From: Pseudomonas sp. KBW05
Lineage (GTDB): Bacteria > Pseudomonadota > Gammaproteobacteria > Pseudomonadales > Pseudomonadaceae
Length of the DNA: 64,000 nt
Direction of reading: 5' to 3'
NCBI RefSeq assembly: GCF_003852405.1
Contig: NZ_QAJM01000027.1
Span: forward strand, 62,001-126,000
Of the stretch, positions 11,833 to 37,428 are shown one piece after another. The notes below the pieces were generated by a model. The model was given only the letters and a program-made list of their open reading frames with translations, was not told where the DNA came from and ran no database searches. The first letter of the stretch is position 1, and every line of letters starts with the position of its first letter. The translations under genes were made by a program, and so were the position numbers.

Positions 11833-14541
11833 TCATATCGCTTGTGATGGCGGCTTCAAGTTAAGTAATTGGTGGTACACATTTATAGCGGTGTCATTGA
11901 CGTAGCGTATTTCCTCGTAATACCAAGCTGTTGCCTTTGGCATATGCATAATTTTACGACGGAGGTTTCGAGGTCGGCCTATTTCAAAACCTTTGTACTC
12001 CAGATTTCTAACGTACTTTTCATATTCGGAACAAAGTTTAGGGAAGTCGTCAGAAGCTGTATAAATCACGATAAATATGGGGCTAGTACCCGTAGAGTTA
12101 TATCCGCATACCTTATCTAGGTGCTTCTTGATTACGGTTCGATCAATCTTATCGCCTAATCGAAAAGCCTCAATCACGGACACAAGATTTCCATTGCCGT
12201 CCTGAATCCATCCGTCAGTTTCACCAACTTGCTGGCCTGAAGCTGACCAGCCCATCCGTGATTGATCATGAACTGTCCATCCAACAAAGTTCATACGTTG
12301 CTTAATCAACGATACTAGCCAGTCATTGATCATGTCTTCATCATCCAGCGGTATTACGGAAGATCCGGCATCAGCTTTCTTCCGAAGTAGATTTCCATTT
12401 CGTAGCAAGAGCTCATTTCCTACCTGCTCTATTATCTGAAGGAGATAGGTGTCAATCGAATTATTAGGCTCCATCAATATCTGGCTTTGGTCGTTAGCGT
12501 TCAGGGCGCGAATTCTCAGCCAGCTAGTTCTAAGGTCAGTTTGTACTGAATTGATCGTAGGGCCTTGGGAAGAAGTGAGCTGAGGCAAGTAATTAGTCTG
12601 TTGAGACAGGAGGCTCGATTCGATGATCGATAATTCGTCTATCGCAAAAGGTGGGAGCACGGTCTCATCTGAACGAAGAGTTTGAATGTAACTGAGTGCC
12701 TCATGCCGGCGACCCGATCTCGATAAATACTCGGCGCGTTCGGCAGCGAACTGATAGCTATTTCGCTGTCGGGTTGTAGCCATGCCCCAGAACTCGCCGA
12801 ATTCATTGAGGTGCCTGGTTTTCAAGCAAAGCTGAAGTATGCTGCGTAATTCTTCATCTGGAAGTTCGGACTTTTTTAAATCAGGGCCAGACGTCTTGAA
12901 AATAGACGCCCATGTCTTGAAATGCCCTCTAAGCTGTTTGGAAGACTCAGGGGAGGCTGGGGCAGATAAGGCGCTCTTGATAAGGCCTGTGGCATGTTGT
13001 AGGGTTGGTGCGGCTTTGACCAGCTGAGCAAACTGTCTAATAGATGTATCGCTATCGATCGTTATGTTGAGACTTGCAATGAGATAGTTTTTAAATTCAT
13101 TGACTGATCTTACGACCTCCTTGGAGTCGTTTGCTGTCTTGAAGTTACGGATTAGTTCGCGCTTTTCCTTGATGTCGGGCTCTGCGTTGTCAAATATACT
13201 TTTCAGTTCTACTTTGTCGGTTAATTCTTCAATCTTGTTTTTATGTGTTTTATGTGCGGAGTTTCTAATGGAATTTAGGAAGTGTTTGGCAATGTCAATA
13301 TGACCGTTGTTGGCAGCCTTGAGAACAATCTCAAAGATTTCTGGAATCCAGTTCGGTGAATCTTGCTCTATATCCCGACCCTTGATGATGGATTCAATCT
13401 GCTCCTTTCGCTGCTCTGGGATTGTTTTCTCCAAAAGCGTGAATAGTGCGCTCAAAGGAGTAATTGCAGGGGCAAGTACGGTAAGAAGATCATAAAATTG
13501 ATCATCGTTAAACTCGTTTACGGCTTCGCAAAATGTCGGCCAAAGACGAATGGGGCTGTAATCAGAGTTGTCATTGGAGTAGTTTAAAGCGCCAGAATAA
13601 TGGTCATGTGCGAAACCAAACCGTCTTGTGAGAGAGATGAGTTCTGAGCTAATGTCATTTCTTGTTTGACTGTCTCGGGCTACGGTGAAGAGCTGAAGTA
13701 GAACCCGCAGATGTAGTCTCACTGCTGAGTTCAGGTTGCTCGATCTTTCCGCCGATAGGTTTTTTTCTCGATCATCGCAAGTTTCTAGGGCGAATATCCA
13801 CTTGGCTCGTTGCCCTTTTGTCAAGCATTCATGGAGTTGGCCCCAAGGTAGTTCGTCAACCGCTAATGGGTCATCTCCACCATACCATCGACCATCAAGT
13901 CTCTCTTTTAGGGTATTCAAATAGCTTGAAATGAGTACCTCGCAGAGTTTTTTCAAAGCCTCATTGCTTTCTAAGTTTGGATTGGTCTGGGTTAGTTCAA
14001 TTGCCCAGAATGCTATGATCCACTCTCCTAGAGGAATAGGCTCAAACGCCTTTCGGTTCAATGTGGCGCGTTGCTCGATAATAACCGCTAGAAGCGGGAG
14101 ATGGTTTTCAATTAAATTATGCTTATCGCCATGCGGTGCTAGGTAGCTTATCGAGGTGATAGCGTTTCGTAGACTTGACAGGCGGGTGTCTGCGATTACT
14201 TGTGTGCGAGAACTTCGGGTGATCTCGTGATCGGCGAACCATGCGACCATTTCGCAGATCGAATCAATCGCAGAATGTATGTCTGTGTACTCGAAATGAT
14301 CCTCGTAAGCCAGGCAATAGATTTCAAGTCCTTGACTCCACACTAAATCTTGCCATATGCGTTCGTATGCAACTTTATCGGAGATAGGACGCCCGACTCT
14401 GGAAATATTTTTGTACAGGCCAATTAACCCTATATGATTTGTTGGCCTATGAGAAAGTAGGAAGCACAGGTACGCAGCGTCATGTACATGGGTGAACAAA
14501 AGATTTATTAGTTTTGGGGAAGTAGAGGAAATATCAATCAA
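11833..14541 (-). CDS. Unknown 902-aa protein with a nuclease-like C-terminus
   Basis: Not recognised. Most of the protein is predicted helical with repeated Leu/Ala patterns like TPR-type scaffolds; the final 150 residues differ. There, WSASGQQVGETDGWI, then VSVIEAFRL, then IFIVIYTAS follow the order Asp, Glu-containing strand, hydrophobic strand, as in PD-(D/E)xK nuclease folds, although the lysine is not obvious. The likely start is TTG at 14541 with a weak ribosome-binding site. The upstream gene at 15580 is 94 bases away in the same direction, so the two probably work together. It sits at the island edge, where defence genes are common. The nuclease assignment is an inference. Confidence 0.75.
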   Translation of the reverse strand: MIDISSTSPKLINLLFTHVHDAAYLCFLLSHRPTNHIGLIGLYKNISRVGRPISDKVAYERIWQDLVWSQGLEIYCLAYEDHFEYTDIHSAIDSICEMVAWFADHEITRSSRTQVIADTRLSSLRNAITSISYLAPHGDKHNLIENHLPLLAVIIEQRATLNRKAFEPIPLGEWIIAFWAIELTQTNPNLESNEALKKLCEVLISSYLNTLKERLDGRWYGGDDPLAVDELPWGQLHECLTKGQRAKWIFALETCDDREKNLSAERSSNLNSAVRLHLRVLLQLFTVARDSQTRNDISSELISLTRRFGFAHDHYSGALNYSNDNSDYSPIRLWPTFCEAVNEFNDDQFYDLLTVLAPAITPLSALFTLLEKTIPEQRKEQIESIIKGRDIEQDSPNWIPEIFEIVLKAANNGHIDIAKHFLNSIRNSAHKTHKNKIEELTDKVELKSIFDNAEPDIKEKRELIRNFKTANDSKEVVRSVNEFKNYLIASLNITIDSDTSIRQFAQLVKAAPTLQHATGLIKSALSAPASPESSKQLRGHFKTWASIFKTSGPDLKKSELPDEELRSILQLCLKTRHLNEFGEFWGMATTRQRNSYQFAAERAEYLSRSGRRHEALSYIQTLRSDETVLPPFAIDELSIIESSLLSQQTNYLPQLTSSQGPTINSVQTDLRTSWLRIRALNANDQSQILMEPNNSIDTYLLQIIEQVGNELLLRNGNLLRKKADAGSSVIPLDDEDMINDWLVSLIKQRMNFVGWTVHDQSRMGWSASGQQVGETDGWIQDGNGNLVSVIEAFRLGDKIDRTVIKKHLDKVCGYNSTGTSPIFIVIYTASDDFPKLCSEYEKYVRNLEYKGFEIGRPRNLRRKIMHMPKATAWYYEEIRYVNDTAINVYHQLLNLKPPSQAI

Positions 14542-14635
14542 TTTTTTGGTGAGAGGAAAACTAGAATGGCGCGAGTAGATGTTTCTCTCGTGCTTTATAA
14601 TCAGCCAAACTAGACTGTCGGATACGCGATCCCGA

Positions 14636-15580
14636 TCATGAAAGCCATCCTCGATGGCCTTCCTCGAACCACGTGATTTTTTCGAGTAAAGTATTCTTTG
14701 GCTTGCGCACCAAGTTATTTATCACGTCAGCTAGCGGACTTAAGTTTAGTGAGTCGTTATACACGATTTCAGTGGTGGCACTGGCTGTTTGTATCTGTGT
14801 CAACGATTCAACGCGGTTGTAGTCGATCGCAATTTCGGCAGCGCAGCCTTCCCAATCTGCACGCAGGCTTTCATCGGTAATTATGTAGTTGAGCGCGCAC
14901 TCAAGAAATTCGTCTAAATCTACGTGATGGTCGAAGTCAATTTCGAAGACGTACGGCCGGTCAGCCGCCATGCGCATCCTAGTCGTGTACTCTTCAAAGG
15001 CTTCTTTAATCTCCGTAATTTCGGTACGTAGCCTCTTCCATACGAAGGTGCCAACGCCGAAGATATCATCATCGCTGATTGAAAGCGTTACGTGATCTTC
15101 CGTCAAGGTTAGGTGTGGCTGCAGCAGTACAAGCTGGTCGCGGGTTATTTTGCTTTTAGAAATCCTTAAATGAGGAGCTTCCAGTTCTCCGCCGCGATAA
15201 GACACATCGTAAAGAAGGTCGTGAGCGTGTAGTTGGTTGCGCAGTTTTGCGGGCATTTCCGGTGACGTTGTGACGGTACGCTGAACACACAGATTGTTAT
15301 GTGGGAAACTGATCATCCTAACCTCCTCTAGATCTTTGATGCTGACGGGATAAGCTAGGCAGTAATTGCCACTATCAACGGCTGGCCAAGGTTGCCTGTC
15401 CTCGATCAACCCTTTGACTACCTTTCGTGTTAACAGCCGAGGGTAGATAGTCGCTCTGCAGATTAAGTCCGCTAACAATTCATGTATTCGGTTTGGCCGC
15501 ACTTGCGACGTTACTGCATGGTGATCCTTATAAAGTGTAAGCTTTTTTTCCAAGTCTTTGATTAGCTCGTACGCACTCAT
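14636..15580 (-). CDS. Unknown 314-aa protein, partner of the 902-aa gene
   Basis: No family recognised. It is a soluble protein without signal peptide or membrane segments, mixed alpha/beta, with an acidic middle region (TEITEIKEAFEEYTTRMRM) and a histidine/aspartate stretch FDHHVDLDEF. The ATG at 15580 is a clear start. It precedes the 902-aa gene on the same strand, and the two form an isolated pair between the island end and an XRE regulator gene. Base composition is lower in G+C than the core genes, in keeping with acquired DNA. Confidence 0.72.
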   Translation of the reverse strand: MSAYELIKDLEKKLTLYKDHHAVTSQVRPNRIHELLADLICRATIYPRLLTRKVVKGLIEDRQPWPAVDSGNYCLAYPVSIKDLEEVRMISFPHNNLCVQRTVTTSPEMPAKLRNQLHAHDLLYDVSYRGGELEAPHLRISKSKITRDQLVLLQPHLTLTEDHVTLSISDDDIFGVGTFVWKRLRTEITEIKEAFEEYTTRMRMAADRPYVFEIDFDHHVDLDEFLECALNYIITDESLRADWEGCAAEIAIDYNRVESLTQIQTASATTEIVYNDSLNLSPLADVINNLVRKPKNTLLEKITWFEEGHRGWLS

Positions 15581-19327: not shown

Positions 19328-21619
19328 TTAATGGACGGTAGTGCTTTCGAAAGCGTTTCCTCCGTGCAGCCATCGAGTAGTAAACAACCTTGCAAACTCT
19401 ACCGCACCTTTGAAATTCAACTGAGATGACGCATAGGATTTCATGAGCAGGGAGCGGGGCAGTGCCCAGTCCCACTTCTCCTTGATTAGATTCTCGACTC
19501 CATCCAGTAACGCCTCAATATCGTCGGGATCCAGTTCCGCAACTCTTGCGAGGGCGTCAGCGACACTTTTTTGTGAGTCGCCGAGCGACAATGCAAGGCC
19601 CGAACTCTCGCAAGACAGTCCTACATAGTTGAACATGAGCACTAGAGCGTCGTTGGTTTGGTCGCCACGCCAAGTCAACAAATGAGTTTTCGAGTCAGAG
19701 CCGTAGGTGAATTCATGTGCTAGCCCGAGAGATCTGAAGGATTTACGGGCTTCGCTCAACAGCTCCTGCGCTTTGCTATCGATGAAGGGGCAGGGCGTTA
19801 TTTCAGTCAGTACGGCCCTCATCTCCTCTCTTACATGGTCATGTACCGTCGCACCAAGCCCGTCGAATTGGGGTGGCTGACCGCCTCGAGCGGCGGTTAC
19901 GACGATCACCTTTTTTTCGATATCTACATCCAGTACGCGCCAACGCCGGCCACCAAAGATAATCCGCTGCCCCTTCATTAGAGGCCGACTGACAGGGATT
20001 GACCCAAGCGGCTTGCCCTCGCGGATAAGCCTGAATTCTTCATCGCTGGTGAAGGCGCTATAGAACTCGTAATGGTTGATCAGTCGTTCGCCGACTTCTC
20101 CTGGTAGTAGGTAACCTGAGCTGTCCTGCACGATCAGTTTCTTCTCGCCGAGTCCCTTCAGTAGAGCAAAGAAGTCAGGCTTGGAAATGCTTTTAAATGT
20201 CCCGCTTTCAACCAGACTACCCCATAGCTGCGCCGCGCTGGCTCCTCCTTGCTGTGCGATTACTGACAGAATTTGTTGTACCAATGTCGAGGCATGCAAT
20301 CCCTCTGCCCTAGGCGGCTCAAACCAGTTGCCAATCAGCAGCCTGATCATCGCGATGGTTTGGACGAGGTTCTGGCGAAGTAGATCTGATAGCAACGATT
20401 GATCTGTAAGCTCACGTTCCTGACAGTACGCCCGTAGCGTAGCGGGTTCATCGTTCCGGCGACCTGACCGACCTAGACGTTGGCGCAGGCTTGCGACTGA
20501 TGGCGGAGAGCCTATCTGGACGACCGTCTTGATGTTGCCGATGTCTATCCCAAGCTCCAGAGTGGTGGTGCACACGGCGGTTGCTGGCGATGTGCCTGCT
20601 TTGAGCGCGCGCTCCGTGTCTTCGCGAAGATCTTTCGAAAGACTACCGTGATGAGGCAGGAATTCGTTCGGCATACCGCTGATTTCACACAGGCGACGTA
20701 GGCGGTCTGCGTACCACTCCACCTCCTGCCGGCTGTTCGGGAAGACCAAATTGTTACTGCCACGCAGCACCTTGTACATATGGGCGGCGATGGCATGTCT
20801 GGAGCCCGATTCGTCTTCCTCCTCCTCCTCTTCATCTTGATTCTGATCAGGCTCAGCTTTCGGTGCTTCAACGAGGAGCAGCTTTTGCATTGGCGGCATC
20901 ACGTAGCCGCGCACTTGCACTTGAAGATTCTGGCCGGATGATTTTGATTCAATTACCTGTACCCGCTGAGGATGCCCGGGCCGAAGAAACTCACTTGCTA
21001 GCGACATATCTCCCAGCGTGGCGGACAACCCGACTCTCGGTAGAGCCTTTCCGGCGACAAGCTCTACACGCTGCATCAATGACTGGAGCTGCTTACCACG
21101 CTCGCTACCAATGAAAGCATGTAGCTCGTCGACCACGATGTAACGCAGGTTCTGGAACAGCCCGGCCAAACTAGAGCCCCTGTTTACGAATAATGCTTCC
21201 AGAGACTCAGGTGTGATCAGCAGAACGCCTTTGGGAGACTTGAGGAACTTGTGTTTTTTGCTTGCTGACACATCACCGTGCCATGCCACAACAGGGAGAT
21301 CCAGTTGCTCACACAGTCGACTCAGTCTGTCCCACTGATCGTTGATGAGTGCCTTCAGTGGGCTGATATAGAGGACAGCACCTGCAGGGTCGGGGTGATT
21401 CATCAGGTTTGTGAGGATGGGCAAGAACGCGGCCTCAGTTTTACCCGCAGCAGTTGAGGCGGCGATGATCACGTCCCGGTCAGCTTCGACTAGCGCTGAA
21501 ATCGCCCATTCCTGGGCGTCCCGCAATGCTGTCCATCCTTGGGCCCAAACCCATTGTTGGACGGCTGGATGCAGGCGCTCGAAAGACGAGGATTCAGAGT
21601 TTGAAACTGGTGAGCTCAT
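19328..21619 (-). CDS. Lhr-like superfamily 2 DEAD/DEAH helicase (BrxHI-like)
   Basis: ATP-driven nucleic-acid helicase of 763 aa. Motif I is STAAGKT (55-61), motif II DELH (164-167), motif III SAT (199-201), and motif VI QRLGRSGRR is near residue 395. An acidic run of Asp/Glu around 260-272 sits in an insert. The C-terminal half resembles Lhr-type helicases such as BrxHI of type 2 BREX. It is the last gene of a three-gene operon: the preceding ATPase gene overlaps it by 26 bases. A role in DNA processing or phage defence is inferred from the partners, not shown. Confidence 0.88.
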   Translation of the reverse strand: MSSPVSNSESSSFERLHPAVQQWVWAQGWTALRDAQEWAISALVEADRDVIIAASTAAGKTEAAFLPILTNLMNHPDPAGAVLYISPLKALINDQWDRLSRLCEQLDLPVVAWHGDVSASKKHKFLKSPKGVLLITPESLEALFVNRGSSLAGLFQNLRYIVVDELHAFIGSERGKQLQSLMQRVELVAGKALPRVGLSATLGDMSLASEFLRPGHPQRVQVIESKSSGQNLQVQVRGYVMPPMQKLLLVEAPKAEPDQNQDEEEEEEDESGSRHAIAAHMYKVLRGSNNLVFPNSRQEVEWYADRLRRLCEISGMPNEFLPHHGSLSKDLREDTERALKAGTSPATAVCTTTLELGIDIGNIKTVVQIGSPPSVASLRQRLGRSGRRNDEPATLRAYCQERELTDQSLLSDLLRQNLVQTIAMIRLLIGNWFEPPRAEGLHASTLVQQILSVIAQQGGASAAQLWGSLVESGTFKSISKPDFFALLKGLGEKKLIVQDSSGYLLPGEVGERLINHYEFYSAFTSDEEFRLIREGKPLGSIPVSRPLMKGQRIIFGGRRWRVLDVDIEKKVIVVTAARGGQPPQFDGLGATVHDHVREEMRAVLTEITPCPFIDSKAQELLSEARKSFRSLGLAHEFTYGSDSKTHLLTWRGDQTNDALVLMFNYVGLSCESSGLALSLGDSQKSVADALARVAELDPDDIEALLDGVENLIKEKWDWALPRSLLMKSYASSQLNFKGAVEFARLFTTRWLHGGNAFESTTVH

Positions 21620-22889
21620 CGTCTGCCTCGATGCTTAAATCCTGCATGGCGCCATCGTCTTGAGCAATCTGAACAGCGCCTACCAATGCACGCCAGTCCG
21701 CGCCGGGGTTCTGCTCCAGTACGGCGAGCAAGTTGATGAACGCCGTAATAGTCGTACGAGGCGTCCGGAAGTAGGCTTCCCCCAATCGTTGATTGCAGTG
21801 CGACATGAATGCAGGAATTGCCTCATCTGGCATCAAATACTTGTCCGGGTCGCCGTAGGCATAAACGTTACGCAGCTTTTGAAGCAGTACGTAGAAGTCT
21901 TCCGGAGTCAGGCTGCTCAGGCGGATTACGGGCCCGGACAGGTCGATCAATCCAGATTTGGCAAACGTGTTTTCAGCAAGCCGTGACTGCAAGGCGGGGT
22001 AGCTGTAAAGCCCGCGACGCGTGTCCATCAAAAACTCTGGCGTACCGCCGAGGACGAAGCCTAGACCCTCAGTGGTGCCTTGTAAGGAATCATTTAAAAT
22101 CCGCAAGATCTGCTCGTAGTTGGCGTTGCGTGCCTGGGTGTTCGCTAGCTTGTACAGGTTGACAAGCTCGTCCAGACAAATCATGAGGCCGCCAAACCCT
22201 GCAAGCCGGACGAACCGCGACAGTAACTTCAACTGATCGTAGACCGATGCGTCATCAATGATTGTTCGGACACCAAGCGCCGCACGAGCATCTGTTCTAG
22301 TAGTGAATTCTCCTCGCAGCCATCGAATGGCATCTGCCTTCAGCTGCTCGTCGCCTTGTTCAAACCCTTGGCAGTATTTGGCAATTACGTCGGCGAAATC
22401 GTAGCCGTTTACCATCTCAGTGAGTTCGGCCAGAAATTCGCGAATGACGATTTCGCTCTCGACACCTCGCGTTTTGGCTTCAGATTTGGCTTGGGAAATG
22501 AATTTCTCAACAATACCCTGCAGCGCGCCACCGTCCGGTTTCGTCCGGGTGGACATGTTTTTAGCGAGCTCGGCATACAGGGAGCGTGCTTGTCCTCCGG
22601 ATGCATGAAGCCTACGGTCGGGATTCAAATCGGCGTGCATTGTGACCAGCTTTCGCTCCATCGCAATGCCTCTGACAAGGTTGAGAAAAAAGGTTTTCCC
22701 CGCACCATATTCGCCTACAACGACCCTAAAAGCGGAGCCGCCGTCAGCTAGTCGATCTATGTCTTTCAGAAGAGCGTCTAGCTCTTTCGCTCGACCCACC
22801 TGAATAAGATGTTGGCCCGCACGAGGAACTACACCGGCTCGCAATGACTGGATGACCGCATCGCGATCTTTGGGGCGTATCGTGCTCAT
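21594..22889 (-). CDS. DUF2791 P-loop ATPase (BrxD-like)
   Basis: AAA-type ATPase of 431 aa. Walker A is GEYGAGKT (59-66) and Walker B LMICLDE (235-241), preceded by the family-typical N-terminus with GRAKELDALL. This is the DUF2791 family, which includes BrxD of type 2 BREX. It overlaps the TerB_N-protein gene upstream by 4 bases (ATGA) and the helicase gene downstream by 26 bases, so the three are translationally coupled. It probably loads or powers the helicase. No BREX pglX, brxC or pglZ gene is present in the window. Confidence 0.88.
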   Translation of the reverse strand: MSTIRPKDRDAVIQSLRAGVVPRAGQHLIQVGRAKELDALLKDIDRLADGGSAFRVVVGEYGAGKTFFLNLVRGIAMERKLVTMHADLNPDRRLHASGGQARSLYAELAKNMSTRTKPDGGALQGIVEKFISQAKSEAKTRGVESEIVIREFLAELTEMVNGYDFADVIAKYCQGFEQGDEQLKADAIRWLRGEFTTRTDARAALGVRTIIDDASVYDQLKLLSRFVRLAGFGGLMICLDELVNLYKLANTQARNANYEQILRILNDSLQGTTEGLGFVLGGTPEFLMDTRRGLYSYPALQSRLAENTFAKSGLIDLSGPVIRLSSLTPEDFYVLLQKLRNVYAYGDPDKYLMPDEAIPAFMSHCNQRLGEAYFRTPRTTITAFINLLAVLEQNPGADWRALVGAVQIAQDDGAMQDLSIEADDELTSFKL

Positions 22890-25324
22890 AAGGCTAATTC
22901 TTCCAGGATATCTGGGTTGATCTCGATGGGGTCATCCCCCTCGGAGACTGGCATGTCGAACCGTTCAAACGCCATGTCGTTGATGTGCTCGAGAGCACCG
23001 TCCAGCATGAGTTCCATATCAGTGGCAACATCTTCCAGCTCTTGGCGGCTCCATTCTCGGCGTGACACGATCATTCGTAGAAACGCTGAGTGTTCTGTGT
23101 CGAGCCCATGCACAGTCGCCGTATGATCAGTTGGCTGATCCCTGATACTGACCTTCACGATAGGCGGTTCCGGAGATTCATCATTGAATACCTCCGCCAA
23201 CAATGCTGAAACCGCTGCCGTCTCGCGTTGGAGCTGCGCAATTTTGTCCATGTCCAAATTGAAGCCTTGGGAGGCGTCAGTAATGCTTGACGTACCACCG
23301 GCCTGTTTGGCACTAGGCTCGGCACCAAGTGCGGACGCAGCGGAAGAATTCCTAGAAGGGGTGATGGCCGCGCCGTGTAAGTCCCCGTAAAGCAGCTGCG
23401 TATCCAGCTCAAGTGTTTTATAAACGCGCTCCAGCAGCCGGACTTCCTGAGGCGAAACGTTTCCGTCAGCTTGAGCGAGATGAGCTAGGAACCCAGCTAT
23501 GGTGCGTTTGGCGTCGGCACTCAGAGGGCTTAACTTTTTCTTTAGGCTCGCCAGTGTAGGCGGCTGAAGAATTTGGATTTGCAGGTGGGCTTTGAGCCGT
23601 TTCTGATGAGATACGCGAAGATGACTCCAGGAATCGATATGCCGCCCTAGCTGGGTCATCTCATCGCCTGAGCTTTCACCATCTACGGCCGCAACCGCGC
23701 TTGCCAAATCCAGTGTTACCGCTGCAGCGTGATAGTCCGAAGATGTCCTTAGGCTTCCATCATCGTCACTCGTCGCGAACAATACGATCGTGTCGGAATT
23801 TTTGGGAGTACGGCTACCCGATAGTACATCTGGCTCAAAGCCGATATTCAAAGACTCGAGGGCTCTTGCCAAGGCTACAATTGTTCCACGAGGCAGAGCT
23901 CCTGAAGATCCAAAGCGACCTGCCAGATCCCCAAAACTCATCACCAACTGCTCATCCCCGGCTTGGAGTTGCAGTTCAGCGATTGCATCCTTCGCCGCTG
24001 CCGGCCATAGGGCCACCGGCAGTTGCAGAATACCCTCCAGATTTGAGGCTCCTTCTGGGTTACGACCTAGGTATCTGCTGTATGGGTCGAGGGCTATAGT
24101 GCATTCATCCACCATAGCCTGCAGCTTGTTACGCGTTGCCGAAGTAGCGGAAACATCCGGTATATCACCCAACGCAATTTCGGGAGCGCTCAAGCGCGAA
24201 GAGGCGGAGCGATAGGCGATTTTGAGCAGAGTCTTATTTTGGGTAAGCACAAGGCCCTTCGGATAAAGGGCTGAATACCGGGCCACGAACAGCTGCGCAA
24301 ACTGATCCGCGCATCTGCTCACAGCAGTGCGGCGGCTGATGTTAGGGTCTGACTGTACCCATGCCATTGCCCACGCCGCGTTCAGGGGATGTTTATCCAA
24401 AGCCATTTGGCCTAATGCCAGTCGTAGCGCAATCGGCAATTCAAAGCCATTCGACTCAAATCGAGGCGGTGCATTCAAGTACATCTGCGGTTCCACATCC
24501 ATGAGTTGTATGTGGTTGAGCAGATTCGACGCGTAGTTTCGAAACGATGAATTGTCCCCGTAGAGGGTTTTAAGACGCTCAATCTCCGCTGCGATGGTGG
24601 GGAGTTCCGAGCGCGCGGCCTCATCTGTAATTGAATCAATGATGGCCCGACGCTCGAGACCGTAAAAAAAGATGAAGACATATCCTATATCCACACTGGG
24701 TGCACAGCGGCCCTCGGACAGCCATTGCAGGTACCCACGTCGTGCTGCAGGAGAAATGCCGCTGTAACTCGGCCAATACCCGGTTAGCTTCTCAGTGAGA
24801 TCCACATGCGCAGCGTGCACAGTCAACTGGCCGTCAATCAACGAGGGCTCTTGGTCAAACGCCCGATCTGCTCTCTCAGTGAAATACACCAAGGCAACCT
24901 TAAGGGCCTGTCCGCCGACGGTGATGGTTTCATCTTTTCCAATCCATCGCGCTTTCGGGGTTAGGTTTTTAGGCTTGGGAATCGTGAATTGCTGCTCAGG
25001 CGAGCTCACCCTGATCGTATGGAAATCTGAGCCAGCGCGGTCTCCGCTGTTCACATCAACGCTGATTTCAGATTTTTGCTCGTGATTTGACAAGGAGGCG
25101 GTCTGACCTAATGAGTCGGCTAGGATATTCGTTTTAAGGCGAGGAGGGCGCTTCGGTGGCGCTGCGGAGTACTTCATTATTAGCCAGATGACGGCAACGA
25201 TTCCTGCCAAAACTGCGACTGTGAGCCGCAGCTTTGATGGTGCAGCGGCGATGGCCACGACCAGTATCAGTATCAAGATCACCGCGCTCGACATGCCTAG
25301 GCTGCTTTTTTGCTTCCGTGCCAT
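22886..25324 (-). CDS. Membrane-anchored TerB_N/TerB/TerB_C protein
   Basis: A protein of 812 aa that begins with two membrane segments (about 12-28 and 33-51) and a linker. From about 125 to 330 follows a TerB_N-type domain (VGGQALKVALVYF, GYWPSYSGISPAARRGYLQWL). An acidic TerB-like helical bundle lies around 620-670 (HLAQADGNVSPQEVRLLERVY), and a TerB_C-like acidic tail closes the protein. TerB domains bind metal and are linked to tellurite and stress systems. The start at 25324 is chosen because GGAG lies eight bases upstream; longer N-terminal readings are possible. It is first in the operon with the ATPase and helicase and could tether them to the membrane. Confidence 0.85.
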   Translation of the reverse strand: MARKQKSSLGMSSAVILILILVVAIAAAPSKLRLTVAVLAGIVAVIWLIMKYSAAPPKRPPRLKTNILADSLGQTASLSNHEQKSEISVDVNSGDRAGSDFHTIRVSSPEQQFTIPKPKNLTPKARWIGKDETITVGGQALKVALVYFTERADRAFDQEPSLIDGQLTVHAAHVDLTEKLTGYWPSYSGISPAARRGYLQWLSEGRCAPSVDIGYVFIFFYGLERRAIIDSITDEAARSELPTIAAEIERLKTLYGDNSSFRNYASNLLNHIQLMDVEPQMYLNAPPRFESNGFELPIALRLALGQMALDKHPLNAAWAMAWVQSDPNISRRTAVSRCADQFAQLFVARYSALYPKGLVLTQNKTLLKIAYRSASSRLSAPEIALGDIPDVSATSATRNKLQAMVDECTIALDPYSRYLGRNPEGASNLEGILQLPVALWPAAAKDAIAELQLQAGDEQLVMSFGDLAGRFGSSGALPRGTIVALARALESLNIGFEPDVLSGSRTPKNSDTIVLFATSDDDGSLRTSSDYHAAAVTLDLASAVAAVDGESSGDEMTQLGRHIDSWSHLRVSHQKRLKAHLQIQILQPPTLASLKKKLSPLSADAKRTIAGFLAHLAQADGNVSPQEVRLLERVYKTLELDTQLLYGDLHGAAITPSRNSSAASALGAEPSAKQAGGTSSITDASQGFNLDMDKIAQLQRETAAVSALLAEVFNDESPEPPIVKVSIRDQPTDHTATVHGLDTEHSAFLRMIVSRREWSRQELEDVATDMELMLDGALEHINDMAFERFDMPVSEGDDPIEINPDILEELAL

Positions 25325-25765
25325 CAGGCGCTCCATGAAGTTCGGCTGGCTTATTGGCAGTATCTGCATTTTTTCGATTGGCGCCAAGCATGGCAGTTGA
25401 TGTAGGTTTATCTCGCCGATGTACCGCAACAAAATTCTCCATAGATTGAGCTAGGTGGAGAGCATCGTCCTTATTTCTGGAATCGCGTAACTTTGTCTCT
25501 AACGAAGTCATCGTCGCGGGTTTGCGTGCAGCAGAGGTTTGGCCGCTGCTAAGCCAGGCGCAGAGATGGCCCTCGTACTATGCCAATTCGGCAAACGTCG
25601 TACTTCATTATCACATCGGGCCGGATCTTAAAGACGGGGTATCTTTCTACTTCGAAACGTTCGGCTTAATGCGCACTTCGATGAATCGCGGATGAGCGCT
25701 TTGGCCGCTATCACTCCGTCGCGATAATCTGACTTTGTAAAGTAGCGTCCGCTTAGGCCGGAGCG

Positions 25766-27046
25766 CTACCTAGCCTTGACCGTCCACAACTGATCCATTT
25801 TGGTCGTGTAGCTCTGACTCATCAGCTCCCGACGCATCGCCCAACCAGGCGCTGCTGGCACACTCGCTACCCGAAGGATTCCCTTTCCCCAGCGGCCATT
25901 GATCTCATCCAGAACGCTCATGACCTTGTCTGCCATTACAGGTTGCGAATGAGCGAACAGGTCATCAGTGAACTCGCCAGGCTGCCGTAGATCCATCAGC
26001 AGAACCTCCGCCTTACTGTATTTGTAGCCCGGTCGGAAGAGGCGATTGACCGCATCGGTTGCGGCCTTCGTCATGAGTCGCACGTCGTTGGTCGGGTACG
26101 GCAATTCCACCAGAGCTCCATTTGCATATTTCGCTTCCTGGGGATTGAACATGCCGGTTCTAATGCTCACACGGATCTTCTTGCATAGCGAGGTTTGTGC
26201 TCGGAGCTTTTCCGCCGCGCGTTGTGTATAGGTAGCGACCGCTTCCCTAATCGGCTCAATTTCGGTGAGCCGCGTACCGAACATCCTGCTACAGCAAATC
26301 TCCTGCTTGGGAGGATCAGCCTGACCCAACTCCAGACATGGGGTGCCGGCGAGTTCGCGAGCGGTTTTCTCGACCACCACGCTGAATTTTTGGCGAAGCA
26401 TCCACGGGTTGGCTTTTGCCAAGTCCATCGCGGTCTTGATGCCCAGCGTTTCCAGGTGCGCCTTCATGCGCCTGCCGATGCCCCAGACCTCGCCGACATC
26501 GGTGTTGCGCAACGTCCAGTCCCGTTTGAACGGGTCGCAAAGATCGACCACGCCGCCGGTGATATCTAACAGTCGCTTGGCGGTATGGTTTGCGAGCTTC
26601 GCCAGCGTCTTGGTGTGAGCAATACCCACCCCGACTGGAATCCCCGTGCACTTGAAAAGAGTGGAACGCATACGTCGCCCAAAAGCAGATAGATCACCTG
26701 GGACGCCAGTGAGGTCGGCAAACGCTTCATCGATGCTATATACCTCGAGCGCTGGCACCATCGATTCGATAATCGTCATGACGCGTTCGCTCATGTCGCC
26801 GTACAGACCGTAATTACTGCTAAAAGCCACGATTCCATGCCGGCGTAGATGGTCTTTGATCTGGAAGTACGGCTGGCCCATTTTCACGAAAGGCTTCGCG
26901 TCGTAGCTGCGCGCAATCACACAGCCGTCGTTGTTGGACAGCACCACAATAGGCGTCTTGGCGAGGTCAGGTCTGAAGACGCGCTCGCAGCTCGCATAGA
27001 AGCTGTTGCAGTCGATCAGGGCGAAGACAGGTTCACGTATTGTCAT
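25766..27046 (-). CDS. umuC: DNA polymerase V catalytic subunit UmuC
   Basis: Y-family translesion polymerase of 426 aa. The N-terminus ALIDCNSFYASCERVF holds the first catalytic Asp, and SIDEAFAD holds the second acidic pair; a little-finger domain follows. It overlaps umuD by 14 bases, the usual umuDC arrangement. Together with cleaved UmuD it copies damaged DNA with low fidelity. The operon is under a LexA box at 27488-27503. Pseudomonas plasmids and islands often carry such genes (rulAB), so mobility is likely. Confidence 0.94.
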   Translation of the reverse strand: MTIREPVFALIDCNSFYASCERVFRPDLAKTPIVVLSNNDGCVIARSYDAKPFVKMGQPYFQIKDHLRRHGIVAFSSNYGLYGDMSERVMTIIESMVPALEVYSIDEAFADLTGVPGDLSAFGRRMRSTLFKCTGIPVGVGIAHTKTLAKLANHTAKRLLDITGGVVDLCDPFKRDWTLRNTDVGEVWGIGRRMKAHLETLGIKTAMDLAKANPWMLRQKFSVVVEKTARELAGTPCLELGQADPPKQEICCSRMFGTRLTEIEPIREAVATYTQRAAEKLRAQTSLCKKIRVSIRTGMFNPQEAKYANGALVELPYPTNDVRLMTKAATDAVNRLFRPGYKYSKAEVLLMDLRQPGEFTDDLFAHSQPVMADKVMSVLDEINGRWGKGILRVASVPAAPGWAMRRELMSQSYTTKMDQLWTVKAR

Positions 27047-27464
27047 GATCGCGGACGCTGTACTTCACGACACCCCAGATCACAAGCTCATCACCTTCCA
27101 TGACATGTCTCGCCGGATATTTTGGATTCTCCGACAAAAGCATCACGGCGTTCTCGCGCAGAAGCAGGCGCTTGCAGAACGGTTCCGAATTCAACGCTGC
27201 GATGACGATATCGCCACTGACCGCATCAATGCTCCGATCAACCACCACCAGATCCCCTGAATAGATCCCGGCGCCCTGCATACTGTCTCCATCGATCCTT
27301 ACCAGGTACACGTGCGGTGCACGTATATCGAACAACTCATCGAGGGAAATGTGTTTCTCAATGTGGTCAGCAGCTGGCGAAGGGAACCCCGCAGGCACCT
27401 TGGAGGAATAGAGAGGTAGTTTCTTACCGCCAAGTGCGAGTGGGCCGAGGATGGTGATGCTCAT
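27033..27464 (-). CDS. umuD: UmuD, self-cleaving subunit of polymerase V
   Basis: A 143-aa S24/LexA-like protease. The Ser-Lys dyad is Ser61 (GDSMQGAGI) and Lys98 (FCKRLLL), and the expected cleavage site Ala25-Gly26 is present in VPAGFPSP. RecA filaments trigger cleavage, producing the active UmuD' that binds UmuC. The ATG at 27464 lies 24 bases downstream of the LexA box. It is first in the umuDC operon. Confidence 0.95.
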   Translation of the reverse strand: MSITILGPLALGGKKLPLYSSKVPAGFPSPAADHIEKHISLDELFDIRAPHVYLVRIDGDSMQGAGIYSGDLVVVDRSIDAVSGDIVIAALNSEPFCKRLLLRENAVMLLSENPKYPARHVMEGDELVIWGVVKYSVRDHDNT

Positions 27465-27487
27465 GATGCAAGCCTTTTGGAGATTAA

Positions 27488-27503
27488 CTGTACATACATA
27501 CAG
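27488..27503. promoter_or_regulatory. LexA box shared by umuDC and the SRAP gene
   Basis: CTGTACATACATACAG fits the SOS consensus CTG-N10-CAG, and the symmetry extends to TTAACTGTA on the left and TACAGTTAA on the right (27484-27507). It lies in the 98-base gap between the divergent umuD and SRAP genes, so one LexA site can repress both. Confidence 0.9.
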
Positions 27504-27562
27504 TTAACGATTTGCTACGCTTGCGGTCAATCTCATAAGACAACAATTAGACGGGTGACAGC

Positions 27563-28273
27563 ATGTGCGGACGCTACTCGGTCTACGAATCGATGGATCA
27601 CTATCTCAAGGAGCTTGCGCCGAAGCAGCTGGTGATCAATGGCTATGACCTGTGGCCCGTCGAGCGGTACAACGTCGCGCCCTCTACGCGGGTGGAAATC
27701 ATCCCGCCAGCGGCGGACGGCTTGAGTGTCGATAAGGTCAAATGGGGATGGGCGCCGTTCTGGGCGAAGGGAAAGCGTCCTGACCCAATAAACGCGAGGG
27801 TCGAGACCGTCATGACCGGGAAGTTTTTCAATGAGCTCTGGCCAAATGGTCGCGTACTCGCGCCGGCGAACGGTTGGTTTGAATGGGTTAAAGACCCCGA
27901 TGATGCTAAGAAAAAGCAGCCCTACTTCATCACGCTGAAAGAGCAGATTCCGATGTTCTTCGCCGGCCTGGCTGAAGTACACCAAGGCCTGGAACCGGAT
28001 AATCGCGACGGTTTCGTCATCATCACCGCTGCGAGTGATCAGGGCATGGTCGATATCCATGACCGCAAACCGCTTGTTCTGGCACCTGAGCACGCTCGCG
28101 AATGGATTGATCCTGAGATTTCAGTTGAACGAGCGAAGGAAATCGCGATAGACCATTGCCGACCGGTTACCGATTTTCATTGGTACAAGGTTCGCAAAGA
28201 TGTGGGTAACGTGCGTAATCAAGGCCCGCATCTGATTCAGCCCCTCTCACTGGCCGAAGACGTCGATGACTGA
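27563..28273 (+). CDS. SRAP-family protein (HMCES/YedK-like abasic-site shield)
   Basis: Forms a covalent crosslink to abasic sites in single-stranded DNA through Cys2 after removal of Met1, protecting them from breakage. The 236-aa protein starts MCGRYS; Asn77 (INARVET), Glu107 (GWFEW) and His166 (IHDRKP) match the known active-site residues. It is divergent from umuDC across a single LexA box, so it is probably SOS-induced. The link to translesion synthesis is sensible: both deal with damaged template strands. Confidence 0.93.
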   Translation: MCGRYSVYESMDHYLKELAPKQLVINGYDLWPVERYNVAPSTRVEIIPPAADGLSVDKVKWGWAPFWAKGKRPDPINARVETVMTGKFFNELWPNGRVLAPANGWFEWVKDPDDAKKKQPYFITLKEQIPMFFAGLAEVHQGLEPDNRDGFVIITAASDQGMVDIHDRKPLVLAPEHAREWIDPEISVERAKEIAIDHCRPVTDFHWYKVRKDVGNVRNQGPHLIQPLSLAEDVDD

Positions 28274-33515: not shown

Positions 33516-33740
33516 CTAGCCTTTGGTTTTCTTCGGGTCGGCGCTCCGAGGATACGTGCGCTCTTCCTGGATCGTACCGTCTTCCTTATGGATCTTCAGC
33601 GATGCTGTTTTTCCATCAAGAAACTCAGTAGCAAGCTTTATGATCTCGACCTTTGTAGTGGCCGTTTTCGACGCTCGTTCTGCGCCTTGCTTCTTTAATG
33701 CCCAACCATTTTCAGTGGGCGTGATGTGGTAGTTATCCAT
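33516..33740 (-). CDS. DUF2188 small protein
   Basis: A 74-aa protein with the DUF2188 pattern: HITPTENGWALKKQGAERAS, where the Trp and the residues around it are conserved, and a second beta unit IHKEDGTIQEERTYP. Related proteins are small and of unknown role. It lies 22 bases downstream of the XthA-LigD gene on the same strand and is probably co-transcribed with it. Upstream AGGAG is inside the intergenic gap. Confidence 0.85.
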   Translation of the reverse strand: MDNYHITPTENGWALKKQGAERASKTATTKVEIIKLATEFLDGKTASLKIHKEDGTIQEERTYPRSADPKKTKG

Positions 33741-33762: not shown

Positions 33763-36700
33763 CTACTTAAGCCCGATGCGTTTGCGCATTTGGGCTGTGA
33801 TGGTTTGCTTTGTTTTAGGCATATCAGCCCATGGATCGACGTCCAGCTCGCCTAGACGTTGATGGAGGTTTTGTATGTTCCAGACGTTAGCGCCTTTGAT
33901 CTCTTTTAGCTCATCTCGGAAGATCGGCACTGACACTGGCAGTCCATCACGAGTACGTGCCGAATAGGCGCAGATCGTGGTCGCGCCCAAGCCGTTGCGC
34001 AGATAGTCGATGAAGATCCGTCCCACGCGATTTTTGGGGCCAGAAACTGCAGAGAACCGATCTGGAAGCAGATTGGCGATATGTTTAACAATCGAGTGGC
34101 TAAAGCTTTTCACCGTGTCCCAGTCTGCTTTCGGCGTCAAAGGGACGACAATGTGGATGCCCTTACCACCGCTTGTTTTCAGGAAAGATTTAAGGCCTAG
34201 TTCATCCAGTACCGTCAATGTCAGCTGGGTCGCCTCCACCATGCTTTTCCATGGCAGTGCAGGATCGGGGTCAAGGTCTAGGATAAATCGATCAGGGCGA
34301 TGTAGATCCTTGGATACGGCGTTCCAGGTATGCAGCTCAATCGTGCTCATCTGAACCGCGCCTATCAGTGCCTCAATGTTGTTGATCAACATCACAGGGT
34401 GACCCGTCTCTTCTTTGCCGATGATTTCGATCCCAGGGATTGCCAGACGCTCTGCATTTTTCTGAAAGAATAGCTCTCCGCCGATTCCGTCTGGAGCGCG
34501 CACCAGCGCGACAGGGCGATTTAGTAACTGCGGCAGAAGCCAGTCAGAGATGCCAATGTAGTAATCCGCTAAGTCACGTTTGGTCGAGCCGCTACTCGGG
34601 TCAATCACGCGCTGGGGATGCGTGAGTCGGATCTTTGTTGACCCATCGTCGCCGGCTTTACGTTTGGCTTTCACTTCAGTCGATTGGTTTTCTTCTGACT
34701 TTCTCTCGACTTCTGGGGCAGGGGCCGGGCGCTCTTCGATGATCGACTTTGCAGGTTTATCATTGCGCAGGCCCTGGAATACTGCGTGTCTTACGGAGCC
34801 ATCCTTTGTGATTTCTGCAAAGGCGACCTCTGCCAGAAGCGACGGCTTCAGCCAATGCACGTCTTTTGCTTCGAATCCGGTGGGAGGGTTTACGACAGCA
34901 GGCTTCTTGGCTTCAAGGGGGGTTAACTGTTCGTAGATCGTATTCAGTGTCACCTGGTTGAATCCAGTACCGACTTTGCCAGCGTATTTGAGCTCGCCGC
35001 TGTCTACGTCGTGCAGACCCAATAGCAGAGCCCCGAACTTACTGCGCGAACCCTTTGGCTCGGTATAGCCGACGACTACAAACTCCTGTCGACGTTTACA
35101 TTTGAGCTTGATCCAGTCGCCGCTGCGACGTGATACGTAGGGACTGCCAACGCGTTTGCCGATGAGGCCTTCCATCTGCATTTGGCAGGCGCTGTTCAAC
35201 AGTGCCTCCGGCGTTTCGGCGAAGTCTTCCGAATACCTAAGTACCTCATCCTCACTGCGCTCCAGAACCTTGGTTAAGGCTTCGCGGCGTTGCTCTACCG
35301 GCACCTCGCGTAAATCCATGCCGTTGAGAAAAGGCATGTCGAAGAGGTAGAAAATGATGTTGCCGCTGCGGCCTAGCTCAAAGGCATTTTGGAGAGCCTG
35401 AAAATCAGGAACGCCTTGCTCATTGGCAACAACCATCTCGCCATCCAGCCAGCCCGATTCCAATGCGAGACCAGCAATCGCTTCCGCCTGGCGGGGGAGC
35501 TTATGAGTCCAATCATGGCCATTGCGAGTGAACAACTGCACTTTACCTTGATCCACCCTAGCCATGATGCGGTAGCCGTCGAACTTGATCTCATATCGCC
35601 AATCACCATCCGGGGCGGAATCCACAAGCGTGGCCAGTTCAGGTTTCAGACTATCGGGCAGGTCTGATGGGTGGGCATTGTCTAGCTGTGTGGTTCTCGG
35701 CTTAGCGGGCGGAGCAGGGGCCTTCTCGCCAGTTTTTGGTTGGGCCGATTTCCCGGAGCGCTTCTTCTGCACGATAGTGCGCTCGCTGAGTACGCTGTGT
35801 GATTCTGCTTTCACGATATCGTAATCGCTTTCTGGTCGAGCGAATTCATCCTGATGTTTGATCAGAAACCACTGCTCCTGTTTGCCAGGGATATGCGTCT
35901 TGACCAGGTTCCATATGCCGCCAAGCTTCTCGCCCTGCAACTCAAATTTCAGTCGACCTTTAGCGTAGGCCTGAGCTGGATCAAATAAGGGTTTCCAGAT
36001 ACCGCGATCCCATACAATGACGTCGCCAGCGCCGTAATGGCCTTGCGGTATCGTGCCTTCAAACGTTGCGTAGTCGAGAGGGTGGTCTTCGACGTGTACA
36101 GCCAGGCGTTTGGATTTGGGATCGAGCGAAGGGCCCTTGGGCACTGCCCAACTTTTCAGGTTGCCGTCAAGCTCAAGGCGAAAATCGTAATGCAGCCGAG
36201 TCGCGTCATGTTTTTGTATGCAAAACTGCAGCGCAGCCGGTTCAACGGTTTTGTTCTTTGCTGGTTTACGCTTTGTCGCGGCGCCCGATGGCTCTGAGGT
36301 TGCATCGAAATCACGCTTACGATTGTATTCATCAAGGGTGTTACTGGTTTGCGTTGCTGCTTGCGCGTCGCTTGTTTTTTCCTTTGGCTTCCTTTTTGAC
36401 CTGGTTTTTCGCGATGAGATCTCAATCCATGTCGGGGCGTGATCGCTGGCATGCTCTTCGCCCCGAACCCATGCATCCACGCCGGCGTTCTTCAAGTGGG
36501 GAACAAGCACGGGGTTCAGCAGAAGGTGATCGATGCGCAAACCGGAATTTTTTTGCCAGTGCTGGCGGAAATAATCCCAGAACGTGTAAACCCGCTCCTC
36601 CGGATAAAGGTGTCTCACAGAGTCGATCCAACCTTGGCTCAACAGCCTTTGGAAACATTCACGGCTTTCCGGCTGAAGGAGGGCGTCTTTGAGCCATGAG

Positions 36701-37191
36701 CGGGTGTTGTAGATATCAAAGTCGGTGGGCACGACATTGTAGTCACCTGCGAGAACAACGGGATGTTCGCTGGCTTGTAGTGTTTCTGCATGCGCAATCA
36801 GATGCTCAAACCACCTGAGCTTGTAATCAAATTTTGGCCCCGGTTGCGGATTTCCATTTGGAAGATACAGGCACCCGACGATAACACCATGGACAGCAGC
36901 TTCTAGGTATCGAGACTGCGTATCGTCTTCAGCCCCGGGCAGGCCTTTGTGAATCAGAAGGGGTTCGGAATCGCGCGCAAGAATGGCCACTCCGTTCCAT
37001 GCGGCTTGGCCATGGTGGAGCGAACCATAGCCAGCCGCCTCAAGATCTCCCGCCGGGAAAGCTTTGTCCTGAGCCTTCAGTTCCTGCAGACATACAATGT
37101 CCGGTCGCTCCTTCTCAAGCCATTGCAGAAGGTTAGGCAAGCGCGCTCCTATGCCGTTGACGTTGAATGTGGCGATCTTGAGGTTCTGCAT
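33763..37191 (-). CDS. Exonuclease III-DNA ligase D fusion protein
   Basis: One open frame of 1142 aa joining two repair enzymes. Residues 1-260 are an exonuclease III/AP endonuclease, with Asn12, Glu37, Asp150/Asn152 and Asp250-His251 in place. After a Lys-rich linker (261-285) follows a complete LigD: its N-terminal signature EYNRKRDFDATSEPSG (288-303), the 3'-phosphoesterase with HDATRLHYDFRLELDG, the ligase core with Lys536 in EIKFDG, and the primase-polymerase with DLDPDP (972-977). Ordinary LigD is about 840 aa and has no such N-terminus. It should cut abasic sites, clean 3' ends, fill and seal. No ku gene is in the window. Confidence 0.93.
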   Translation of the reverse strand: MQNLKIATFNVNGIGARLPNLLQWLEKERPDIVCLQELKAQDKAFPAGDLEAAGYGSLHHGQAAWNGVAILARDSEPLLIHKGLPGAEDDTQSRYLEAAVHGVIVGCLYLPNGNPQPGPKFDYKLRWFEHLIAHAETLQASEHPVVLAGDYNVVPTDFDIYNTRSWLKDALLQPESRECFQRLLSQGWIDSVRHLYPEERVYTFWDYFRQHWQKNSGLRIDHLLLNPVLVPHLKNAGVDAWVRGEEHASDHAPTWIEISSRKTRSKRKPKEKTSDAQAATQTSNTLDEYNRKRDFDATSEPSGAATKRKPAKNKTVEPAALQFCIQKHDATRLHYDFRLELDGNLKSWAVPKGPSLDPKSKRLAVHVEDHPLDYATFEGTIPQGHYGAGDVIVWDRGIWKPLFDPAQAYAKGRLKFELQGEKLGGIWNLVKTHIPGKQEQWFLIKHQDEFARPESDYDIVKAESHSVLSERTIVQKKRSGKSAQPKTGEKAPAPPAKPRTTQLDNAHPSDLPDSLKPELATLVDSAPDGDWRYEIKFDGYRIMARVDQGKVQLFTRNGHDWTHKLPRQAEAIAGLALESGWLDGEMVVANEQGVPDFQALQNAFELGRSGNIIFYLFDMPFLNGMDLREVPVEQRREALTKVLERSEDEVLRYSEDFAETPEALLNSACQMQMEGLIGKRVGSPYVSRRSGDWIKLKCKRRQEFVVVGYTEPKGSRSKFGALLLGLHDVDSGELKYAGKVGTGFNQVTLNTIYEQLTPLEAKKPAVVNPPTGFEAKDVHWLKPSLLAEVAFAEITKDGSVRHAVFQGLRNDKPAKSIIEERPAPAPEVERKSEENQSTEVKAKRKAGDDGSTKIRLTHPQRVIDPSSGSTKRDLADYYIGISDWLLPQLLNRPVALVRAPDGIGGELFFQKNAERLAIPGIEIIGKEETGHPVMLINNIEALIGAVQMSTIELHTWNAVSKDLHRPDRFILDLDPDPALPWKSMVEATQLTLTVLDELGLKSFLKTSGGKGIHIVVPLTPKADWDTVKSFSHSIVKHIANLLPDRFSAVSGPKNRVGRIFIDYLRNGLGATTICAYSARTRDGLPVSVPIFRDELKEIKGANVWNIQNLHQRLGELDVDPWADMPKTKQTITAQMRKRIGLK

Positions 37192-37428
37192 TGCCTCGAT
37201 CCTTCAATGTGCCTGGAACCTTCTCATCCGATCAATTGAGAGAGGGATGCGTTCTAAATTCATTCTGAAAGCACTGCAGTAGGATGCGGTTGTACAAAAG
37301 TATCGCTGCAGCTCAGTATAAATTCTTGATGTCGTTCTTTTGGAACTAGCGGGGTGATTGAACGTTCAAGAAATTTAGCCGTAAACAATTGATGGGAAGT
37401 GTCGAAAATACTAGCCGGAGGCGTACCC

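Follow-up and report, generated by a model that had tools for sequence, protein, structure and literature searches.

An ExoIII domain fused to LigD in Pseudomonas: a conserved domain architecture, present in a genome in which Ku was not found

The window analysed here, a stretch of 64,000 nucleotides from Pseudomonas sp. KBW05 (contig NZ_QAJM01000027.1, positions 62,001 to 126,000), carries on its reverse strand a gene (33763–37191) in which an exonuclease III (ExoIII, hereafter Exo) domain is joined to LigD. This ExoIII–LigD fusion is real, conserved and under purifying selection, and it represents a new domain architecture of a known family. Judged from its sequence, it is one selected polypeptide, a complete LigD of the LigD2 lineage that bears the ExoIII at its N-terminus, the two being joined by a short basic linker. 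On balance, we consider that this single chain heals 3' ends, fills gaps and seals nicks, and that it is able to act without Ku; we favour this over a role mainly in Ku-dependent end joining. No description of such a fusion was found in literature searches limited to open-licence papers and only in part directed at it, in keeping with an earlier note on the same DNA, whose author knew of no characterised example.

The frame starts with ATG and runs for 1142 residues free of internal stops; AAGGA, which reads as a ribosome-binding-site-like sequence, lies 8 bases before the start codon (37200–37204(-)). The order of the parts, ExoIII–PE–Ligase–Pol, is supported by Pfam, by NCBIfam and by the same frame in relatives. 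The ExoIII domain (residues 1–259; 36415–37191(-)), delimited by Pfam, NCBIfam and alignments, is followed by a linker rich in Lys, Arg, Ala and Thr (residues 260–285; 36337–36414(-)), then by the LigD N-terminal motif and 3'-phosphoesterase (PE) region (residues 286–470; 35782–36336(-)), the catalytic and C-terminal domains of an ATP-dependent ligase (residues 519–812; 34756–35637(-)), and the LigD Prim-Pol polymerase (Pol) domain (residues 870–1121; 33829–34584(-)). All six Pfam families score over their cut-offs: Exo_endo_phos (7–251), LigD_N, which covers the PE (326–431), ligase M (519–697), ligase C (716–812), LigD Prim-Pol (870–1121) and, inside the latter, a weaker match to DNA_primase_S. 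Within NCBIfam, exoDNase_III spans residues 4–258 and the LigD subfamily model 283–1140, the start of which agrees with the placing, in the earlier note, of a LigD N-terminus near residue 288; the note's central observation, a single frame uniting ExoIII with a complete LigD, is thereby borne out. From the end of the Exo up to the PE core at residue 326, the window gene has no in-frame ATG, GTG or TTG.

Both halves are assigned to their families without difficulty. TIGR00195 and TIGR00633 match over cut-off across the full length of the Exo, placing it in the ExoIII/XthA family, and the narrower E. coli-type model PRK11756 gives a score of 182.8, under its cut-off of 280; the remainder combines PE, ATP-dependent ligase and Prim-Pol in one protein, as expected of the LigD family. 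The nearest solved structures by sequence are Neisseria meningitidis NExo for the Exo, 2lj6 and 3n9b for the PE, 1vs0 for the ligase domain and 2fao for the Pol. The Exo catalytic positions of the window protein are N10, E37, Y109, D150, N152, D221, D250 and H251, and an alignment shows the catalytic and metal positions to be intact in all 15 Pseudomonas fusions compared, which confirms the earlier claim of an intact ExoIII. Equally constant are KFDG, which we take to be the ligase motif, and DLDPD and TSGGKG, presumably of the Prim-Pol (15/15 in each case), whereas the motifs that we ascribe to the PE (QKHDA, HYDFR and EDHP) occur in 13 of the 15.

The fusion recurs across the genus. Among 399 Pseudomonas genomes, in which counts are minima and weaker fusions could lie unseen, the full Exo–PE–Lig–Pol frame is found in at least nine, that of the window included, and two more (G158 and G068) hold Exo–Lig–Pol in one frame without the PE, giving a fusion of either type in at least 11. 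A scan of GTDB contigs, from which the best 80 of 548 related loci were kept, contains seven full-length fusions among those 80: in P. cedrina subsp. cedrina, P. cedrina subsp. fulgida, P. poae DSM 14936, P. trivialis DSM 14937, P. bohemica IA19, and strains v388 and JUb42. The P. poae, P. trivialis and P. bohemica genomes are G136, G031 and G085 of the genus sample and are counted once, leaving 15 distinct fusion genomes, 13 with the PE (four of them from the contig scan only). The search of other genomes that the earlier note had proposed, therefore, yields the same kind of fusion in 14 (12 with the PE and two without), and its concern that close relatives might keep separate genes is not borne out, as the closest relatives among the matches listed, G059 (91%) and G338 (90%), are fused too. 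An error of sequencing or assembly that removed a stop or a start is practically inconceivable and was rejected, given the same kind of frame in these 14 genomes, some assembled in 1 to 3 contigs (one for G132, three each for G059 and G338). In wider samples of the order, class and phylum (244, 321 and 299 genomes, respectively, overlapping one another and the genus sample), G000 and G136 are the only genomes with the fusion among the matches listed, and both belong to the genus Pseudomonas.

The junction has changed in length while remaining open. The linker, from the end of the Exo to the LigD start motif, has eight lengths of 17–35 residues in the 13 PE-containing fusions, every one in frame; in the other 12 of these, the stretch between Exo and PE core lacks an in-frame ATG, GTG or TTG in seven and has one or two in five. 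The ratio of non-synonymous to synonymous substitution rates (dN/dS) is 0.016–0.10 per domain over eight pairs, with three values saturated (two for the PE and one for the Exo), and is low for the window fusion against its nearest relative. Of the seven pairs in which it could be computed for the Exo, the lowest ratio falls to the Exo in four and to the PE in three. Moreover, the DNA likeness of the other fusion loci to the window is mostly limited to the gene itself, with or without the DUF2188 gene that follows it in the window, so the fusion gene sits in different contexts.

By its position in a quick LigD tree, the fused LigD is assigned to the second Pseudomonas LigD lineage (LigD2) and not to the Ku-linked one: the Ku-linked LigD1 proteins stand apart from the LigD2 clade (SH-like approximate likelihood ratio test, SH-aLRT, 99), and all 15 fusions fall inside one 23-row LigD2 subclade (100/99), together with eight unfused LigDs (from P. 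syringae GAW0119, two P. viridiflava, P. petrae, two P. graminis, CFBP 13711 and G152). The fusions do not form one clade in the tree itself; since a one-clade topology is not rejected (approximately unbiased test, p 0.109), they may have a single origin. A search at E 10 for a relict exo near unfused LigD2 genes gave no match at any of 11 loci, three of them second copies from genomes already in the set. If the ancestor had a PE, this domain would have been lost at least twice, since, of the two PE-less fusions, that of G158 branches within the PE-containing ones and that of G068 outside them. G158 also shows an in-frame loss of the ligase domain from its Ku-linked LigD1, with PE and Pol remaining (a 534-residue frame; L278 5541–7145(-)); the two proteins of this genome thus show a reciprocal domain loss, PE–Pol without ligase in LigD1 and Exo–Lig–Pol without PE in the fusion (L088 4276–7200(-)).

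The genome that contains the window differs from most of its relatives in respect of Ku. A Ku profile matches in 22 of 24 genomes tested, the exceptions being the window's genome, rated 100% complete, and G206, which is assembled in 1150 contigs and is not counted as a Ku loss. The only Prim-Pol match in the window's genome is the fusion itself, which is hence the only LigD found there. Indeed, the site of the missing pair can be recognized: the interval that holds ku and ligD1 in the relative G059 is bounded by two flanks which in the window's genome are 5 bases apart, inside a 166-kb contig and with no N in the 6 kb read, and the pair is therefore absent from that site by sequence and not through a gap. 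A Ku partner in the same genome, the mark of LigD as an end-joining system, is accordingly not found for the window's strain, which lowers the case for a classical non-homologous end-joining ligase there, not the assignment to the LigD family. Neither the second LigD lineage, nor the missing Ku, nor the absence of the PE from two relatives had figured in the earlier note.

As to what the Exo domain does, two positions are informative: Asn112 and Leu171, which correspond to Asn108 and His167 of NExo and are invariant in all 43 exo rows aligned besides three references. Parts of PMC6294502 describe NExo as having no AP (apurinic/apyrimidinic) endonuclease activity, with His167 shutting out AP sites and Asn108 supporting 3'-phosphatase activity, whereas ExoIII and NApe incise AP sites efficiently. 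Asn112 provides the Asn expected of an NExo-type 3'-phosphatase; Leu171, at the gate position, is neither the His of NExo nor Gly or Ser, and its ExoIII counterpart is Ser in a HMMER alignment and Lys in a MAFFT alignment. Additionally, the window's genome encodes, on another contig, an XthA-like paralogue whose motifs resemble E. coli ExoIII. Because of these residues and of this paralogue, 3'-end healing is the safer prediction for the fused Exo, and AP-site incision is uncertain. The earlier note had united AP-site incision, 3'-end cleaning, gap filling and sealing in one chain; of these, the first activity is uncertain, with Leu171 at the gate and Asn112 as in NExo.

Within the genus, this exo type goes with LigD. 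Taking presence at E up to 1e-100, and dividing LigD matches into strong, partial and none by E-value, it is found in 206 of the 293 Pseudomonas genomes with a strong LigD match and in none of the 106 without one (96 with no match and 10 partial), counts that are not corrected for descent. Furthermore, the fused exo is the sole exo of its type in 10 of the 11 sampled fusion genomes. Identities of 54–59% between exos at plasmid ligD loci had suggested a LigD-specific ExoIII subfamily across phyla; this was rejected, as in many genomes of other classes exos of 50–63% identity occur either at a distance from ligD or on a different contig. The exo type is widespread beyond Pseudomonas, for the most part not next to ligD, and the exo–LigD link stands only inside the genus.

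Compared with known systems, the fusion has in common with the P. aeruginosa-type LigD, a PE–Lig–Pol protein with a Ku partner, the three domains, their order and the motifs tested, but it adds an N-terminal ExoIII, belongs to the LigD2 lineage and occurs in the window's genome where Ku was not found. With NExo, its Exo shares by sequence the full-length fold, the catalytic positions and Asn112; unlike NExo, it is attached to a ligase and has Leu171 in place of His167. The LigDs of Bacillus subtilis and P. aeruginosa possess 5'-deoxyribose phosphate (5'-dRP) lyase activity and, in vitro, complete excision repair once an AP endonuclease has acted; the same source cites a role of P. putida LigD that does not depend on Ku (PMC4770248, from parts of its text). 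The set of activities proposed to act together is that of the fusion, except that the B. subtilis endonuclease is a separate protein, whereas the ExoIII here is covalently attached. Similarly, in the sections of PMC5663958 drawn on here, a mycobacterial LigC1/Prim-PolC complex combines an ATP-dependent ligase and a Prim-Pol with ExoIII-type nucleases (LigC1 binds ExoIII and XthA), albeit as LigC-type separate proteins held by interaction rather than one chain, and 3' cleaning, ribonucleotide or RNA gap filling and sealing were reconstituted. EndoIV, which lacks strong 3'-5' exonuclease activity, outdid ExoIII and XthA in that reconstitution, from which it may be argued that untethered ExoIII can over-resect. 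In a survey of 5,973 genomes, 619 have LigD without Ku, and 90% of the LigD-only genomes are without POL and PE; the words fused, fusion and exonuclease are absent from the portion of its text examined (PMC7719229).

The mechanism that we propose draws on the continuous frame with its in-frame linkers, the lack of a start codon for a separate LigD in the window, the low dN/dS of each domain, the empty ku–ligD1 site, the occurrence of the exo type with LigD in the genus and the precedents just cited. At a 3'-blocked nick or gap, whether produced by oxidative damage or in the course of base excision, a 3'-OH would be restored by the Exo and PE; the short gap would be cleared and filled by the 5'-dRP lyase and Prim-Pol activities known from LigD and closed by the ligase, every step taking place in one chain. 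Tethering would limit resection by the ExoIII and pass the end directly to the polymerase and ligase. In the window's genome, such repair would have to proceed without Ku, because neither Ku nor the Ku-linked LigD1 was found there, while in relatives that keep Ku the same enzyme could serve end joining too. The absence of the PE from two fusions would be expected if the Exo covers 3' healing.

Several observations weigh against a chain devoted to Ku-free gap and nick repair. The XthA-like paralogue could supply the nuclease step without any fusion; 87 of the 293 LigD genomes lack the exo type at the threshold used, in a co-occurrence that ignores descent; and an AlphaFold prediction of the whole chain from 16 sequences reached a predicted local distance difference test score (pLDDT) of 35.8 and a predicted template modelling score (pTM) of 0.28, and the model was discarded. 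Ku is present in all 10 of the other sampled fusion genomes (10/11 overall), so the fusion can coexist with Ku. LigD1 is full-length in G059, G235, G085 and G068 and reduced in G338 (645 residues) and G158, and G086 has a Ku-linked LigD2-type protein and a 552-residue frame; in G031, G136 and G132 no LigD other than the fusion was found, which fits end joining, and it probably serves Ku in these three. Moreover, xth adjoins ligD and Ku in certain other bacteria, and ku–ligD in some Pseudomonas: LigD, Ku and exo share one strand within 6 kb in G1119; Ku, ligD and xth are close together on Sphingobium, Novosphingobium and Rhizobium plasmids; and an exo stands divergently beside ku–ligD in G387, G086 and G051. 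These arrangements favour a fusion that acts mainly in end joining, the tethered ExoIII trimming blocked 3' ends at Ku-held double-strand breaks, in which case the Ku-less genome would hold a recent remnant, or an enzyme that joins ends without Ku. We regard this as possible but rather unlikely: Ku adjoins the fusion at none of the loci compared (flanks of 3.5 to 6 kb, some ended by contig ends), and the window's genome has an empty ku–ligD1 site yet an intact fusion with low dN/dS.

A last adverse point is that the fusion's ligase and polymerase have been lost, and the Exo kept, in G206, G359 and G067. In an exo tree, whose root is unsure given an outgroup of two very distant paralogues from the window's genome, a branch (93/88) sets the 15 fused exos, these three split relatives and the lone exos of G261, G305 and G195 apart from the rest; the separate exos of G206, G359, G067, G261 and G305 are near-identical to the fused ones. 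Behind the exo of the first three is a truncated PE piece, and their upstream flank matches the window at 88% (in G206 only to the contig end), the likeness ending inside the PE; because of the cut-off PE and the common flank, they look like decayed fusions at the same place. Such losses, the lone exos of G261 and G305, and the unfused LigDs inside the same LigD2 subclade would suit a neutral accident, in which neighbouring genes were joined in frame with their domains unchanged and nothing gained. This we consider improbable, as the domains have stayed joined in 15 genomes, with altered linker lengths, the frame kept and differing chromosomal contexts. Gap and nick repair in one chain remains the reading that we prefer.

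Adjacent exo and ligD genes are found in Sphingobium, Novosphingobium (ligD frame broken), Rhizobium SSA_523, Ancylobacter (exo in two frames), Dyadobacter and G1119, with Ku within the stretch seen for Sphingobium, Novosphingobium, Rhizobium and G1119. Of the 1567 plasmid records that gave a match, 10 cover 80% or more of the query at a single site, and five of these are from Mycetohabitans, in which an exo lies directly upstream of a LigD2-like ligD. In M. rhizoxinica B12 the pair is annotated as one coding sequence, like the fusion, but an independent working fusion was rejected, as the exo part has lost catalytic motifs (D150 and D221 are changed, and there is no SDHAP motif); the open frame of the type strain HKI 454 stops inside the Pol, and M. 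endofungorum B5 and M. rhizoxinica B49 keep two genes. On these megaplasmids (L236, L238 and L244), the states range from B12, fused by a frame change with a degenerate exo, through the broken HKI 454 to the separate genes of B49, and the pair seems to be decaying in this endofungal symbiont. Among the LigD rows with frames over 1100 residues that were opened, G040, L246, L248, L255 and L256 were rejected as other fusions (Ku and LigD adjacent, with a stop between), as were L258 (no Ku or exo match, the extra stretch looking non-coding), L289 and L290 (no exo inside).

Directly downstream of the fusion, on the same strand, is a 74-residue DUF2188 gene (33516–33740(-)), which follows the fusion in the same way at 7 of the 14 other loci compared (in L150 the contig end is too near to judge); its product is a possible, hitherto unrecognized repair partner. 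DUF2188 is also annotated behind ligD–xth on a Dyadobacter plasmid (Bacteroidota). At a distance of some 6 kb from the fusion come a umuD/umuC-like pair and, divergent from it, an SRAP gene (25766–28273), which make this a stretch rich in DNA-damage genes. Farther off, three genes (19328–25432(-)) match PADLOC SngC (5e-297), SngB (1.3e-184) and SngA (2.2e-112), which we take to be a Shango-type anti-phage system; upstream of them, open reading frames of 902 and 314 residues (11833–15580(-)), with no Pfam or PADLOC match, may be non-genes or unknown genes. An element ~100 bases long in L273 (6135–6252) has dozens of matching sites in the window's genome, on either strand, and is probably a REP-like (repetitive extragenic palindromic) repeat.

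In the literature considered here, a role of LigD in excision repair besides end joining rests on in vitro activities and spore genetics (PMC4770248). A bolder proposal, which we advance tentatively and with more doubt than credence, is that the fusion is a natural single-polypeptide, Ku-independent machine for 3' healing, gap filling, dRP removal and sealing, which replaces the lost Ku–LigD1 pair in the window's lineage, one gene having fixed the proposed LigD excision-repair branch. A conserved ExoIII–LigD fusion, in a genome without Ku at the site where a relative has it, brings the excision-repair role of LigD within reach of tests on a single protein and a single knockout, and it offers a compact multifunctional repair enzyme. 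More broadly, the varied combinations in which members of this clade lack PE, ligase, Ku and LigD1 constitute a natural experiment on which of these components can substitute for one another.

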